From positions 1-33,491 of the forward strand of contig JAQCKI010000010.1 in NCBI GenBank assembly GCA_027592645.1: 33,491 bases of DNA, read 5' to 3'. Shown here one piece after another: positions 8,681 through 27,000 of the stretch. Positions within the stretch are counted from its first letter, which is position 1; each line of letters begins with the position of its first letter. Source of the stretch: Chloroflexota bacterium (GTDB lineage: Bacteria; Chloroflexota; Dehalococcoidia; UBA2979). A program made the position numbers and the translations under genes. The notes beneath the pieces are model-generated. The model made no database searches. It saw only the letters and a list, made by a program, of their open reading frames with translations, and was not told the origin of the DNA.

Positions 8681-9236
8681 CGCGGACCACCAGTATCTCG
8701 CCCACGACCGTGGAGATGCGCAGACGGAGCCGGTGCGGCGCCTCGTCGTACGCCTCGGTGCGGACGTGGATGTCGCGGATGAAGCCATCCTCACGCACGC
8801 CCAGCACGTCTACGCTGCCGATGAACGCCTGCGCCTCCACGTCCAGACCGACCGAGGCCGGCGCCTGCACGTGGATCGTCCCCACCCAGCAGAGCAGGTT
8901 CACCTCGACCTCGCCTTCGGGGAGCGTGGCCTGGCGCAGGTCCAGGTGGATGTCGCCAATCGCCGCACGGATCACGCCTTCTTCGAGTCGCCAGTCCTCG
9001 CCGGAGCGAACGTGACCGAAGGCACGGCTTAACTGGCGGGCAAAGCGGTGCGCACGCCACGATGCGAGCATTGAGAGGACGCCGAGGGCGATCAGGAACA
9101 GCCCCACGGCGCCCTCGACGAGCGAGGAGGTGCCGATCGGGAGCAGGCCGGTGGAGTCCAGCGCGAGCAGACCGCCGACGGCGACGAGGTAGAGCCCGAC
9201 GGTCAGCCCCAGTACATCGCGCAGGCGAGAACTCAC
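8670..9236 (-). CDS. membrane protein with LiaF-like C-terminal domain
   Basis: N-terminal TM segments, then GDIHLDLRQATLPEGEVEVNLLCWVGTIHVQAPASVGLDVEAQAFIGSVDVLG (LiaF/cell-wall-active antibiotic response beta-helix pattern). Confidence 0.8.
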   Translation of the reverse strand: MSSRLRDVLGLTVGLYLVAVGGLLALDSTGLLPIGTSSLVEGAVGLFLIALGVLSMLASWRAHRFARQLSRAFGHVRSGEDWRLEEGVIRAAIGDIHLDLRQATLPEGEVEVNLLCWVGTIHVQAPASVGLDVEAQAFIGSVDVLGVREDGFIRDIHVRTEAYDEAPHRLRLRISTVVGEILVVRATP

Positions 9237-9397
9237 CGGCGCCGCCAGGAGCGGCGGACGCGGTCATAAATGATCGCCACGCCAATCGCGATCAGGATGA
9301 CCGGCCAGAGTTCGCCAAACCCGATCCCCTCGATGATGTCGAGCGAATCCAGCAGGAACAGTGCGCCGATCAGGACTAGCAGGACGCCCAGGGCCAC
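9233..9397 (-). CDS. small LiaI/LiaF-N-terminal-like transmembrane protein (54 aa)
   Basis: GTG start preceded by SD TAAGGAGG; VALGVLLVLIGALFLLDSLDIIEGIGFGELWPVILIAIGVAIIYDRVRRSWRRR; 4-nt GTGA overlap with the LiaF-like gene. Confidence 0.75.
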   Translation of the reverse strand: MALGVLLVLIGALFLLDSLDIIEGIGFGELWPVILIAIGVAIIYDRVRRSWRRR

Positions 9398-9590
9398 GGC
9401 GGCCTCCTTATCTCGACCTCGATTGTACGCAGGCCGCGTCCTGTGCTCGCGAGACCCGGGGCACCCCCGTACCTGACGGCATTCTGGCGGTGCGCCACGC
9501 CCGCTTGATCGCAAGGTCCACTGGGTATCGACTGGATAACTGTTCAGATTTGCATAGTCTTTGCAACATTCGACGAGATGGGCGGCTCTG

Positions 9591-10292: not shown

Positions 10293-13200
10293 CCTGTTTG
10301 GCATCCCCCTGACCAACATCCTCGCGGTGCTCGCCGTGATGGTGGGCATCGCCTTCGCCACGCTCGGCTGGGTCGCGTTCCGCAACCCTTTGCTCGTCCG
10401 CATGGGCCTGCGCAACGTGGTCCGGCGCAAGGCGCAGACGATCCTGATCGTGATCGGCCTGATGCTCTCAACGCTGATCATCAGCGCCGCGTTCGCGACC
10501 GGCGACACCGTCGGCTACTCCATCACCAACGCCGTCTACAACGACCTGGGCGAGGCCGACGTGGTGCTCGCCTTCGACGCGCAGAACGCGCCGCCCGGCG
10601 TGGAAGCGCTGACCGACGCTGACCTGGCGCACATCCAGGAGGCGCTGGCCGCCAACCCGGACGTCGATGGCGTCAGCGGGCTCGTGCAGGAATCGGTCCC
10701 CGCAATCAACCAGGGCGAACGGCTCTCCGAACCGCGCGCACAACTCGTGGGTGTCGACCCGGCGACCGGCGACGCGTTCAACGCGCTGATCACGCCCGCC
10801 GGCGACCTCCTGCGCGCCGCTGACCTGGGCGACGGCGAGGTCTACATCACCGACCGGCTGGCGAGTGACATCCTCGCCGGCGCGGGTGACGAGATCGTCG
10901 TCGTCTACGACGGCGTGAGTCACACGCTTCGTGTCGCCGGCATCGTCCGCGACAACGCGCTCACCGCTCGGCCGGCTGACGCGAGTGGCGCGCTGCCCGC
11001 TGGCGGCGTGGTTGGCCAGATGGACCTTGTCCGTGCGATCACTGGTGAGCCCGATTCGCTCTCGCTGATCGTGGTGTCCGCCCGCGGAGGCGTGCGCGAC
11101 ACGCTGGACTTGGTCGGCCCGATCTCAGTGCAGATCGAAGACGCCATCGAGGCACTCGCACTGCCGATCCGCGAAGTGGTGAACAAGGAGGAGGCCGTCG
11201 CCTTCGCGAACCTCATTGGCTCAGTGTTCGTCACCTTCTTCCTGGTGTTCGGTCTGTTCTCCATCGCTGCCGGGGTGATGCTCATCTTCCTGACGTTCAT
11301 CATGCTCGCGGCGGAGCGCCGTGCTGAAATGGGAATGGCGCGCGCCATCGGCATGAAGCGGCTGCACCTGACGCAGTCGTTCATCGCAGAAGGCATGGCG
11401 TACAACGTCGGCTCGGCACTCGTCGGCGCGCTGCTCGGCCTCGGCGTTTCCTACATGCTGATCTTTGTGATGGGCCGAGTGTTCGAGGACTTCGGCTTCA
11501 ACATCACCTTCCATGTGAACTTCGTGGGCTTCGGGATCGCCTACTGCCTGGGCGTGGTGATCACGTTCCTGACGGTGGCGATCTCCTCCTGGCGTGCGGC
11601 GAACCTCAACATCGTTCGCGCGATCCGTGACATCGACGAGCCTCAGCCGCTCCGCGGCGACGATCGATCGATCAAGCGCCTGCTGCTCGCCTCGCTCGCG
11701 GTGGGGTGGTTCCTGCTGTGGTTCGTGCCGCCGCTGACACTGGCACCCCTCGGCCTGTCGCTCTTCAATGCCGTGTTCCGCCGAGGCCGCGTGCGCCACA
11801 CCCGTCGCAACGCCGGCGGCTGGGCCGTGTGGATGTTGATCATCGGTGTGGCCGGTGTGTGGTGGGGCGGCTGGGTCGCCCAGCAGGCGTTCGCCTACAC
11901 CGCCGGCTTCACGCTGATGCTGCTGTCGCTGGCGATGCTGTGGGTCTACTTCGGTGGCCGCGCACGGCCGGCATTCACGCTCGCAAGCGGTCTGTTGATC
12001 TGGTACTGGCTGCTGCCACTGCCGTTCTCCCTGATGTTCGAGGCGGGCAAGGGCTGGATCGACCCGATCAGCGGGTTCTTCTCGCTGTTCGGCCTCGAGC
12101 CGCCGCCGATCCAGGGCAACATCGAGATGTTCTTCGTCTCGGGCATTTCGATCACCGCGTCGGCGACGCTGTTCGTGCTGTTCAACGCGGACCTGCTACT
12201 GAAGGGGGTCAGCGCGCTGCGCTTCCTCTTCGGCGGCCTGATGCCGGCGATCCGGACGGCCGTCGCCTACCCGCTGGCTTCCAAGTTCCGCACCGGCATG
12301 GCGATCGCGATGTTCGGCCTGGTGGTCTTCTCGCTGGTGGTGATGGCCACGCTGAACTCCAACTTCACGCAGCTGTTCCTGGGTCAGGACGCCACCGGCG
12401 GGTTCCAGGTGGCGGTGAAGGGCAGCCCGAACAACCGCATCCCCGATCTCCGCGTCGCACTCACCGAGGCGGGCTACGACGTGGACGGGAACATCACCGG
12501 TGTGGGTACCATGCTCGGTGGCGCGGCGCGGGTGATCTCACCGGTGAAGGATCCGGAGGATCTGCCGTTCTACCGGATCCGCAGCATCGACGAGGAGTTC
12601 GCGAACATCGCGGCGTTCCCGATGCTCACCCGCGCTGCCGGCTACGACTCGGACGAGGCGGTGCTTCAAGCCCTCCTCGCCGACCCGACCGTGGCCGTGG
12701 TGGATGAGTCGCGGTTGACGATCCCGGGTTCGTTCGGCGAGCCAGGCGCGGCATTCCTGCTGCCGCAGACCGCTGCGGACTTGCAGGATGCCCCCTGGGA
12801 GCCAATCGCGGTCACGGTGCAGGACCCGGTCAGCGGCAACACCGTCGACCTGAAGATCATCGGCATCCTGCGCGGCCCCGTGACGGGCGTCATCATCGAC
12901 TGGGCGGCGTTCATCGTCGGCCCCACAGTGATGACCGAGTCGTTCCGCGGCGGCGAGTTCGAGCGGTTCTTCATCCAGACCGCCGATGCGAGCAAGGACG
13001 GCGCGATCGAGGCCTCCCGCCAGATCGAGTCGACGCTCATCGAGCGTGGCGTCCAGGCGACTGCCATCCAGGAGATGATCGACGATGCCGCGGCCGCGTC
13101 GACCGCCTTCCAGGTGCTGTTCGAGGCATTCATGGGCCTCGGCCTAGTGGTGGGCATCGCGGCGCTCGGCGTCATCGCCTTCCGCACGGTGGCGGAACGC

Positions 13201-13512
13201 CGCCAGCAGATCGGCATGCTCCGGGCGATCGGGTACTCGCGACGGCTGATCGCGGCCTCCTTCTTCCTGGAGTCCTCGTTCATCGCGATCACGGGCATCG
13301 GGATGGGGGTCATCCTCGGCGGGGCGCTGTCGTACAACCTGATGACCTCACCCGAGTTCACCAACGGGAACGAGATCGACTTCGCCTTCCCATGGATGCG
13401 GCTGTTCATCATGGTTGGCATCGCCTACGGCGCGAGTGCACTGATGACGCTGATCCCGGCGCGGTCGGCCTCGCGCGTGGTGGTGGCGGAGGCGCTCCGC
13501 TACAACGGCTAG
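10285..13512 (+). CDS. ABC transporter permease with two FtsX/MacB-type domains and a multi-TM central insertion
   Basis: 1075 aa from [61 protein letters not shown] and [17 protein letters not shown] FtsX motifs; 8-nt overlap with ATPase gene. Confidence 0.93.
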
Positions 13513-24373: not shown

Positions 24374-24970
24374 CTACGGGGCCGGCTGTGCCGGCGCGGT
24401 CGCGAGGGCGGTGGGCTCGACGGGGCCATGATCCCTCGATGGCGCGGAGCGGATGCGCCCGGCACGCCACTCACCCTCGCCAACCTTGTCGGCGTGCAGC
24501 AGCACCCGGCCGTCCTCGGTGACTTCGATGGCAACCCGGCCCAGGTCGCGCGGCGTGGGACCAAAGATACGCGTACCGTCGCGCGCCCACCGGGACGAGT
24601 AGCACGGATCCAAGAACACGCCCGTCATGCCTTCCCACACCGCGTCCGGCCGCCAGTCCACGCGGCATCCGAGGTGCGGGCTGATGCCGATGAACGCGAC
24701 GAGTTCACCATCGTCCAGGTGGACGATGTGTACCTGCAGCGGTGCTCCCGGCACGTCGCCGAGGTAACTCCGGCGTGACCACCCGAGCACCGGCGCTCCG
24801 TCACCATCGAGCGGCGTGAACGTGGTCACCGAGCCCGATGGGAAGTCGCTGATCCGGCCGAGGTTCACCGTGCGGCCGTCGGTCATACCTGACCACACGA
24901 AACCAGCGGTGATGGCGATCAGCGCGGCGCTCGCGCTGATCGCGAGCAGCACGAGGAGTGCTCGGCGCAT
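24374..24970 (-). CDS. membrane-anchored Rieske-fold protein lacking canonical 2Fe-2S ligands
   Basis: N-terminal TM/signal RRALLVLLAISASAALIAITAGFVW; AFIGISPHLGCRVDWRP..GVFLDPCYSSRWARDGTRIFGPTPRDL aligns by eye to CTHLGC...CPCHGSxF..G.GPxPRxL. SD GGGAGG upstream of ATG at 24970. Confidence 0.75.
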   Translation of the reverse strand: MRRALLVLLAISASAALIAITAGFVWSGMTDGRTVNLGRISDFPSGSVTTFTPLDGDGAPVLGWSRRSYLGDVPGAPLQVHIVHLDDGELVAFIGISPHLGCRVDWRPDAVWEGMTGVFLDPCYSSRWARDGTRIFGPTPRDLGRVAIEVTEDGRVLLHADKVGEGEWRAGRIRSAPSRDHGPVEPTALATAPAQPAP

Positions 24971-25024: not shown

Positions 25025-25540
25025 CTACGACCCGCCCGCGGCGGCGCCGTCCAGCACTTCGCGCAGGTTCGCGTCGGTCTGAGGGCCAAAGAGGCGCTGC
25101 GTGACGTTGTCGCTGTCCGGCGCAACGACGGCGAACGCCGGGTGCTGCCCGACGCCGAGGCGCTGCGCCAGCGACCGGTCATCGTTCCGGTCGTAGTCGA
25201 GCAGCACGAAGTTCACGTGCTCCTGGTATTCCGTCCGAAGCCCGTTCACGACGGGCCGCGCGATCGCGCAGAACGGTCACCAGATCGCGTCCACGTAGAC
25301 CAACGTGGGCTTGCCGTTCGCGGGGAGGAACGCGCCGGTCGAGTCGACGCGATCCTCGGGCGGCACGTAGCCGGCCTCGACGATCACGGCGGGGCCCGTG
25401 GGAAACGTGGGCTCCGAGGAGGCTCCGGCGGGTACGACAGGGTCGCTCGCCGTCGTCACCGGCCCCGCGTCCGGCGTCGAACAGGCGACGGCGACGAGGC
25501 CGAACGCGAACGTCAGGGCGATCAGCACGACGCGCTTCAT
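25025..25540 (-). CDS. candidate selenocysteine-containing thioredoxin-fold lipoprotein (in-frame TGA at 25277-25279 read as Sec)
   Basis: The 25277-25576 and 25025-25249 ORFs are in the same frame (252 nt apart). Through-reading gives MKRVVLIALTFAFGLVAVACSTP...NGKPTLVYVDAIW-U-PFCAIARPVVNGLRTEYQEHVNFVLLDYDRNDDRSLAQRLGVGQHPAFAVVAPDSDNVTQRLFGPQTDANLREVL, a full thioredoxin domain with cis-Pro. Confidence 0.8.
25240..25256 (-). promoter_or_regulatory. candidate bacterial SECIS-like hairpin
   Basis: Minus strand GCCCGU-CGUGA-ACGGGC: perfect 6-bp stem (plus flanking G-U), 5-nt loop with G at position 2, stem starting after 20 intervening nt from the TGA. Confidence 0.6.
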
Positions 25541-25593: not shown

Positions 25594-27000
25594 GTGATCG
25601 TGCTCCGCCGTTTCCTCGCGAGCATGCTCGGCGTCGTCCTGTTCACCCTCCTCGTCACCTCCACCTCCGTCGGTGCCGTTGCGGCGACGGTGCTCTCCGG
25701 CGACTACCTCGCGGACGCCCTCGACGATGCCGAGTTCCACCAGCGTGTCCACGCCGAAGGCCTCCCGGCGATGGTGCGGGCATACGTCGAGGACCAGGAC
25801 GAGCACGCGCCTGACAACCTGCGCGGCGTCAACTTCCCGACCGACGCGCAGTCCACCGCCCGCCTCACCGAGGTGATCCAGGCGCTGCTCCCGGAGGCGT
25901 TCATCCACGAGCAGACCGATGTGGTCCTCCGCGAGTTCGTCCCGTGGATCACCGGTCGCCAGGATTCGTTCGAGGCGCGCGTCAGTCTCCACGAGCCCCT
26001 GCTCGCGACGTTCGCACCGCGCGGTGGTGACCCTTCGCTCTTCGAAGCGGCGTGGCTCGACCTGGACATGAGTCGCCGCGTGATGGACGGCCTGGCCACA
26101 CGCCAGGCGGAGGCGCGACGCGAGTCCGGCGAGGTGGCGCCCGAGACGCCGAGCGTGCTCGACCGCCTCGGCCCGAACCGCGATGCCGCCGAGCGATGGC
26201 TGGACGACGCGCTATTCGAGGTGATCGACGCGATCGTCCCATTCCTCGCCGGGGAGGCGGAGGACTTCGCGATCCACCTCGACTTCACGCCCTACCCGGA
26301 ACTCGCTGACCCGCTCGCGGAGATACTCAACAGTGACGAGGAGACGCTGCTGACCGAGGGCTGGCGGTTCAACAGCGCCGACTTCCGAGGTCACCTGGAG
26401 GACGCCGGCAATCCCGTCCTGTCCGACTCCAACCGCTTCATCGCCGTGTTCCGGCCGGAGGGCGCCCGGTTCACCTCCGCCGACTTCGTGCAGCGCATGG
26501 AGGAGCAGCGCGAAGAGCAACGCCTCGCCGGTGATCCCGTGGACGGCCCCACCGTAGAGGAAGTGCGGAGGGCGATGTCATGGGGCCGGCTCGCCGCCTC
26601 ATGGGTCCCGATTGGGCTGATCCTGCTGCTCGCCACGGCGATCGGGTTCCTCGGCGGGCGCACATGGACCTCGCGCGGCGCGTGGGCCGGGGTCACAGTC
26701 GTCGTCGCGGCGTTGTTCGCGCTGCTCGCGTCCACCGCGATGTACACCGCCACGGTGGGCGGGCGCTTCGACCGCTGGATCGCGGACGAGCGCGCGGGCT
26801 ACGCCGGCAGTGCGACGGCGGCACTGCGCGACCCGGCGTACGACGTGGTCGAGAGCGTCGTGCACGGCATCGCGGCGGCGATGACGTGGCGCGCCACCGT
26901 CTGGCTGCTGCTCGGCATGGCCGTGGTCGCAGCGGCGATCATCCTGCCGCGCGTGCTCAACCGGCCCCAGCGCCCGACGCCGACGCCGGCCGACATCTAG
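25594..27000 (+). CDS. hypothetical multi-pass membrane protein with large extracytoplasmic domain
   Basis: 468 aa, GTG start; TM near N-terminus and three C-terminal hydrophobic segments; no cysteines; Pro/Thr tail PQRPTPTPADI. Confidence 0.75.
   Translation: MIVLRRFLASMLGVVLFTLLVTSTSVGAVAATVLSGDYLADALDDAEFHQRVHAEGLPAMVRAYVEDQDEHAPDNLRGVNFPTDAQSTARLTEVIQALLPEAFIHEQTDVVLREFVPWITGRQDSFEARVSLHEPLLATFAPRGGDPSLFEAAWLDLDMSRRVMDGLATRQAEARRESGEVAPETPSVLDRLGPNRDAAERWLDDALFEVIDAIVPFLAGEAEDFAIHLDFTPYPELADPLAEILNSDEETLLTEGWRFNSADFRGHLEDAGNPVLSDSNRFIAVFRPEGARFTSADFVQRMEEQREEQRLAGDPVDGPTVEEVRRAMSWGRLAASWVPIGLILLLATAIGFLGGRTWTSRGAWAGVTVVVAALFALLASTAMYTATVGGRFDRWIADERAGYAGSATAALRDPAYDVVESVVHGIAAAMTWRATVWLLLGMAVVAAAIILPRVLNRPQRPTPTPADI

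Follow-up and report, generated by a model that had tools for sequence, protein, structure and literature searches.

A Dehalococcoidia family of Rieske-fold proteins that lacks the cysteine cluster ligands and retains the disulfide cysteines

A Rieske domain is nearly always interpreted as an electron carrier. Proteins of the QcrA/PetC type also possess a pair of cysteines that forms a disulfide, a bond to which tuning or stabilisation of the cluster is usually ascribed. Departures from this arrangement have been described. In NirD of Bacillus bataviensis, the Cys and His ligands of the cluster are replaced (PMC3475470). In AioB, the Rieske subunit of arsenite oxidase, the two disulfide positions change as a pair, being Cys/Cys in A. 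faecalis and Phe/Gly in NT-26 (PMC3758308). The solved structures nearest to the protein described here, both by sequence and by fold, are kuste4569 and kustd1480 of Kuenenia (9rk4 and 9rk3), each of which carries a [2Fe-2S] cluster with full ligands (PMC12954380).

The window, the whole stretch of 33,491 nucleotides analysed here, comes from a member of the Dehalococcoidia. It contains a gene for a Rieske-like protein whose features are listed in Table 1. The frame is opened by the ATG at position 24970, with a GGGGAGG stretch located 8 bases upstream, and its GC3 of 0.83 is coding-like. An earlier note, made from the sequence alone, had given the product 199 residues; the stop codon had been counted, and the protein has 198. 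The same note correctly stated that there are exactly two cysteines, C102 and C123, and that they occupy the disulfide positions. Its reading of the two ligand boxes was also accurate: S97, D121 and Y124 stand at three of the ligand positions, and H99 is kept.

Table 1. Positions of the features discussed in the text, counted from the first letter of the window
Feature	Coordinates	Strand	Basis or remark
Rieske-domain protein, predicted to be cluster-less	24374..24970	minus	198 aa + stop; homology, structure, family comparison
Single N-terminal membrane helix (predicted), residues 2-27, anchor as in QcrA/PetC	24890..24967	minus	AlphaFold2 model, hydropathy
Degenerate box I, S97-P-H99-L-G-C102: ligand Cys to Ser, His kept, disulfide Cys kept	24665..24682	minus	
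Degenerate box II, D121-P-C123-Y124-S-S: ligand Cys to Asp, His to Tyr, disulfide Cys kept	24593..24610	minus	
Retained F-G-P-T-P-R-D-L, the 'Pro loop' of Rieske proteins, residues 136-143	24542..24565	minus	alignment
Thioredoxin-like lipoprotein, in-frame TGA 25277-25279 in W-U-P-F-C	25025..25540	minus	Thioredoxin 5.5e-8
468-aa divergent membrane protein	25594..27000	plus	neighbour gene

The Pfam Rieske model PF00355 reports no match in the window protein. NCBIfam models for PetC (3.7e-7) and QcrA (3.8e-7) do match it, and a sequence search of the PDB returns many PetC/QcrA chains, the best at 3e-7, with both boxes aligned in register. Judged by these matches, its homology to Rieske subunits is beyond chance. 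Furthermore, its FGPTPRDL segment aligns with FGPAPRSMD of intact relatives.

The structure of the protein was predicted with AlphaFold2, using a family alignment of 27 sequences as input. The model has a mean pLDDT of 84.5, rising to about 95 in the Rieske domain over residues 81-160, and consists of the N-terminal helix and an all-beta domain. The Kyte-Doolittle mean across residues 4-22 of the helix is 2.47. When the model was compared with the PDB using Foldseek, the top 50 matches were all Rieske-family chains or complexes containing such chains. The best of them was 9rk4, with an E-value of 1.9e-6 and a TM-score of 0.77 when normalised by the target. The query-normalised TM-scores are near 0.45, as would be the case if nothing in the matched structures corresponds to the membrane helix, the loop of residues ~55-78 and the C-terminal tail. 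The structure prediction proposed as a check in the earlier note has thus yielded a Rieske fold.

The window protein resembles QcrA and PetC, of the bc1 and b6f complexes, in its fold, its N-terminal helix, its disulfide cysteines and its GP-P loop, and chains of this type are among its best PDB matches. It differs from them in that three of the four ligands are replaced and in that its gene lies away from cytochrome b genes, none of which was found among the immediate neighbours. The ligand set that defines a Rieske [2Fe-2S] subunit is absent, and the protein is classified here as a variant of the Rieske fold. NirD is likewise a Rieske-type fold in which ligands can be missing, and the entries 4aiv and 3c0d are among the fold matches. 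However, NirD lacks a membrane helix and functions as a small soluble subunit of NirB, whereas the window protein has such a helix, and there is no nirB gene among the immediate neighbours. AioB shares the Rieske fold, but represents the opposite case, in which the cluster is kept and the disulfide is dispensable; the immediate neighbours of the window gene include no gene for AioA, the molybdopterin subunit. The AioB pattern is repeated in one relative, L238 (G041:C137, 549-1160, plus strand), whose boxes, CPHLGE and CRKHGA, contain all four ligands intact. The disulfide pair of L238 is replaced by Glu and Lys, which perhaps form a salt bridge instead.

Whole-genome searches across the family, the class and the phylum produced 172 distinct Rieske-like cores. 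All four ligands are intact in 58 of these, which are termed intact relatives below, and both ligand cysteines are gone in 109 distinct degenerate domains, none of which keeps even one of the two. On comparison of these domains, the loss of the ligand cysteines is a family-wide condition and not the peculiarity of one odd protein. At least one degenerate member, and up to five, is present in 42 of the 45 genomes of the Dehalococcoidia family to which the window belongs. A few also occur elsewhere in the class, in two further families (G059, G359, G372 and G417). No Pfam family is reported for the degenerate members that were scanned, and no NCBIfam model reaches its cut-off in them. Two of the 109, L040:1244-1858 and L247, are weak members that are perhaps not Rieske domains.

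The former ligand positions have not been treated alike. The box II ligand Cys has become Asp in 91 of the 109 degenerate domains, while the box I ligand Cys is replaced by Asp (31), Val (18), Ser (16) and other residues. The ligand His is kept in 25 domains in box I and in 7 in box II. The statement of the earlier note that only the box I His is kept is therefore true for the window protein and is not a family trait. It had also been asked there whether Ser, Asp and Tyr are fixed and both cysteines invariant. Asp is indeed close to fixation and the cysteine pair is nearly always kept, but Ser and Tyr are not fixed; among the relatives compared, Y124 was seen only in the window protein. The features conserved in the family are the anchor, the two loop cysteines, one Asp, the glycines G117, G132 and G137, the loop after box II and, often, a tryptophan after box I. 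The other three former ligand positions are not conserved.

Asp, Ser and Tyr are conceivable iron ligands, and the window protein has kept the box I His, so that a [2Fe-2S] cluster bound through substitute ligands could be imagined. This is very improbable in view of the family. Every degenerate member is without both cysteine ligands, Val, Ala, Leu or Gly stand at ligand positions of the relatives, and there is no alternative set of Cys and His residues. The cluster is very probably absent from the window protein.

Two relatives from another family of the phylum, L139 (G195:C6) and L149 (G096:C21), have lost a single ligand. They keep CTHLGC in box I and have SPCHDG in box II, where Cys has changed to Ser, and may represent an intermediate state. 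Tandem pairs of degenerate genes are frequent (L035, L048, L049, L066, L210, L211, L213-L217, L219, L220 and L225), each consisting of two divergent copies of different type that are side by side.

The two disulfide cysteines behave as a pair. Both are present in 103 of the 109 degenerate domains and both are absent in 6; the count becomes 103 and 4 if L040:1244-1858 and L247 are left out. Among the 58 intact relatives, 57 have both cysteines and one has Glu and Lys. When the degenerate and intact domains are pooled, 160 have both cysteines, 7 have neither and none has only one. If the losses were independent, the chance of such a pattern would be 1/C(167,7), or about 1.6e-12, a figure that the shared ancestry of the sequences makes too strong; moreover, the alignment is doubtful for two of the seven exceptions. 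The joint presence or loss of the two residues fits a pair that forms one bond, and the disulfide between C102 and C123 probably forms. The proposal of the earlier note that the fold and the disulfide are preserved without the cluster is in this way supported across the family.

In the degenerate proteins L055 / L012 (G017:C95), L070 (G014:C50) and L232 (G021:C200), the disulfide cysteines are gone as well, in every case as a pair. Because of the losses in L055, L070 and L232, the disulfide is not indispensable in all members. Such relatives may be under-counted, since the search profile itself contains these cysteines.

A first search for relatives covered 80 related genomes. Searching genome and viral contigs for related loci with the single protein as query returned nothing; a query made from a subfamily alignment did return loci. 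The nearest two relatives are an ortholog in G002, a genome of the same genus, which is 48% identical and has the boxes SPHRGC/DPCTGS, and L006 in G041, from another genus, with the boxes DPRNGC/DPCHGS. The G002 ortholog shares with the window protein the Ser of box I and the Asp of box II, but not the Tyr. Close homologues with intact ligands, by which the earlier note would have been contradicted, were sought and not found.

The relatives bear directly on the suspicion that the gene is a decaying Rieske gene or a product of sequencing or assembly error. The assembly of the window genome is a draft of 157 contigs, those relatives that are named were assembled from metagenomes, and the gene is missing at this locus from G001, another genome of the same genus. 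However, the G002 ortholog has a full-length open frame with the same Ser, His, Asp and paired cysteines, the degenerate domains are numerous and distinct, the fold is predicted with high confidence and the GC3 is that of a coding sequence. Recent decay or sequencing error was rejected on the strength of the 48%-identical ortholog and the 109 degenerate domains, and is hardly credible.

The window genome has not lost its conventional Rieske protein. An intact subunit of the QcrA type, with the boxes CPHLGC/CPCHGS, is encoded on contig C12, where it adjoins genes for the N- and C-terminal parts of cytochrome b and for a c-type cytochrome. The respiratory role is therefore already filled. Two more degenerate paralogues are found in the same genome, on contigs C73 and C89. 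In the phylogenetic tree, the window group adjoins the clade of intact QcrA-type proteins; a single clade comprising all the degenerate domains is not rejected, with an AU p of 0.77 obtained from a short alignment.

The gene immediately upstream, on the same strand, encodes a thioredoxin-like lipoprotein, and 54 bases separate its stop codon from the ATG of the Rieske-like gene. Its in-frame TGA would place a selenocysteine in a U-x-x-C motif (VDAIWUPFC). The TGA is found in the homologues of about 20 related genomes, at the same place in those that were aligned. The window genome also encodes SelB (302 bits) and has a tRNA-Sec with the anticodon TCA, L081 (G000:C147, 26-122, plus strand), at the start of contig C147. 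Because of the conserved TGA, SelB and the tRNA-Sec, the thioredoxin-like protein is in all likelihood a selenoprotein. It probably represents an uncharacterised family of extracytoplasmic seleno-thioredoxins of the Dehalococcoidia. A search for a SECIS element gave nothing unusual for the window strand alone (z -0.91); 14 homologues taken jointly fold better than 189 of 200 codon-block shuffles, which is suggestive only. In L070, a peroxiredoxin- or thioredoxin-like frame on the minus strand (G014:C50) contains an in-frame TGA in ...RSARWUPYC... and is possibly a second selenoprotein.

This neighborhood raises the question of whether C102 and C123 are a redox-active pair, working as a thiol-disulfide relay or switch with the seleno-thioredoxin as partner. 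The two genes are in tandem, both products are predicted to be extracytoplasmic, and the neighbor is a conserved selenoprotein in a genome equipped with SelB and tRNA-Sec. Nevertheless, the Rieske-like protein at the matching locus of G017 (STHLGR/EPSHSE) has no cysteine at all, yet a seleno-thioredoxin gene is still close by. Conversely, the seleno-thioredoxin locus is common without a Rieske-like gene, for example in G001, G018 and G025. In G001, the M20 peptidase gene is followed in turn by those for a hydroxyacyl-CoA dehydrogenase, the seleno-thioredoxin and a dehydrogenase, and neither the Rieske-like gene nor the membrane protein is present. The gene order is different in G002, where the Rieske-like and membrane-protein genes are inserted at other positions around the seleno-thioredoxin than in the window. 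Since the cysteine-free protein of G017 retains the neighbor and G001 has the neighbor only, the seleno-thioredoxin is not taken to be the redox partner, and a redox-active pair is unlikely. The 468-residue membrane protein, which matches no Pfam family, occurs in 10 of 46 related genomes and is close to a Rieske-like gene in three of them.

The occurrence of the window type is sporadic: it is present in the window, in G002 and, in its cysteine-less form, in G017. Other degenerate subfamilies have more regular settings. The SUF-linked subfamily, which has one extra pair of C-terminal cysteines, occupies the same setting in many genera, together with sufB, sufD (both named from sequence and place), a Rieske ferredoxin, sufS, sufU, a DUF59-type protein and a predicted lipoprotein of the SBP_bac_5 family. 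The ETF-linked subfamily, often a tandem pair, sits between genes for an enoyl-CoA hydratase and an acyl-CoA synthetase; next come those for a NarI-like/4Fe-4S/CCG membrane oxidoreductase, EtfB and EtfA. At L267, for example, the paralogue of this setting lies at 8910-9398 and an EtfD-like protein is encoded at 11131-13314. This second subfamily is more divergent, but its AlphaFold2 model (pLDDT 90.5) also has Rieske structures, along with small subunits of nitrite reductases, as its top Foldseek matches, and C92, D117 and C119 are invariant in 17 of its sequences. The ETF:quinone and Fe-S assembly neighbors suggest that these subfamilies have accessory roles around membrane electron-transfer systems.

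The best explanation of these findings, in which we place moderate confidence, is that the window protein is a membrane-tethered, extracytoplasmic Rieske fold that has no [2Fe-2S] cluster, is pinned by its disulfide and is retained as a rigid module for binding or docking, not as an electron carrier. The loops that formerly surrounded the cluster would be held together by the C102-C123 bond, and Asp121, the conserved residue where box II formerly had its ligand Cys, would perhaps cap the box II loop. The anchor, the cysteines and the Asp are conserved while the other ligand positions vary, a pattern that would follow if the domain were retained for its shape. It presumably acts by binding a partner, the default reading for a fold without a cofactor, and could belong to a membrane complex as a subunit or adaptor. 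Its most likely origin, shared with its many paralogues, is a respiratory Rieske subunit that was duplicated in the Dehalococcoidia. A counterpoint is the absence of the gene at the G001 locus, because of which the window gene is dispensable at the level of the genus.

The conserved Asp could be given another meaning. The former cluster pocket might have been rebuilt as a site for another metal or cofactor, with D121 acting together with H99, S97 and Y124 or their equivalents. Asp can bind metal, and its position is the most conserved of the former ligand positions. However, the other three positions differ even among the nearest relatives, the four residues being S/H/D/Y in the window protein, S/H/D/T in L054 and D/R/D/H in L006, and His99 is seldom kept in the family. 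Because these positions vary freely, there is no constant second metal ligand, and a rebuilt site is quite improbable. A cofactor-free docking module accounts best for the window protein.

The literature found on cluster-less Rieske families comprises only the Bacillus NirD case and the work on the AioB disulfide. The openly accessible papers searched yielded no account of a cluster-less Rieske family that is membrane-anchored and keeps its disulfide. In the present family, what the Rieske disulfide does for the structure can be told apart from what it does for the cluster, and there are natural test cases: a disulfide without ligands in the window protein, ligands without a disulfide in L238 and neither in L055. 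Counts of electron-transfer proteins in these genomes can come out too high if they rely on 'Rieske' annotations. More tentatively, the Rieske domain may have become, in this lineage of Dehalococcoidia, an extracytoplasmic module of general use that is free of cofactor and pinned by its disulfide. Its one to five paralogues per genome would then be accessory subunits of various membrane systems, among them the ETF:quinone oxidoreductase that takes part in fatty-acid oxidation.
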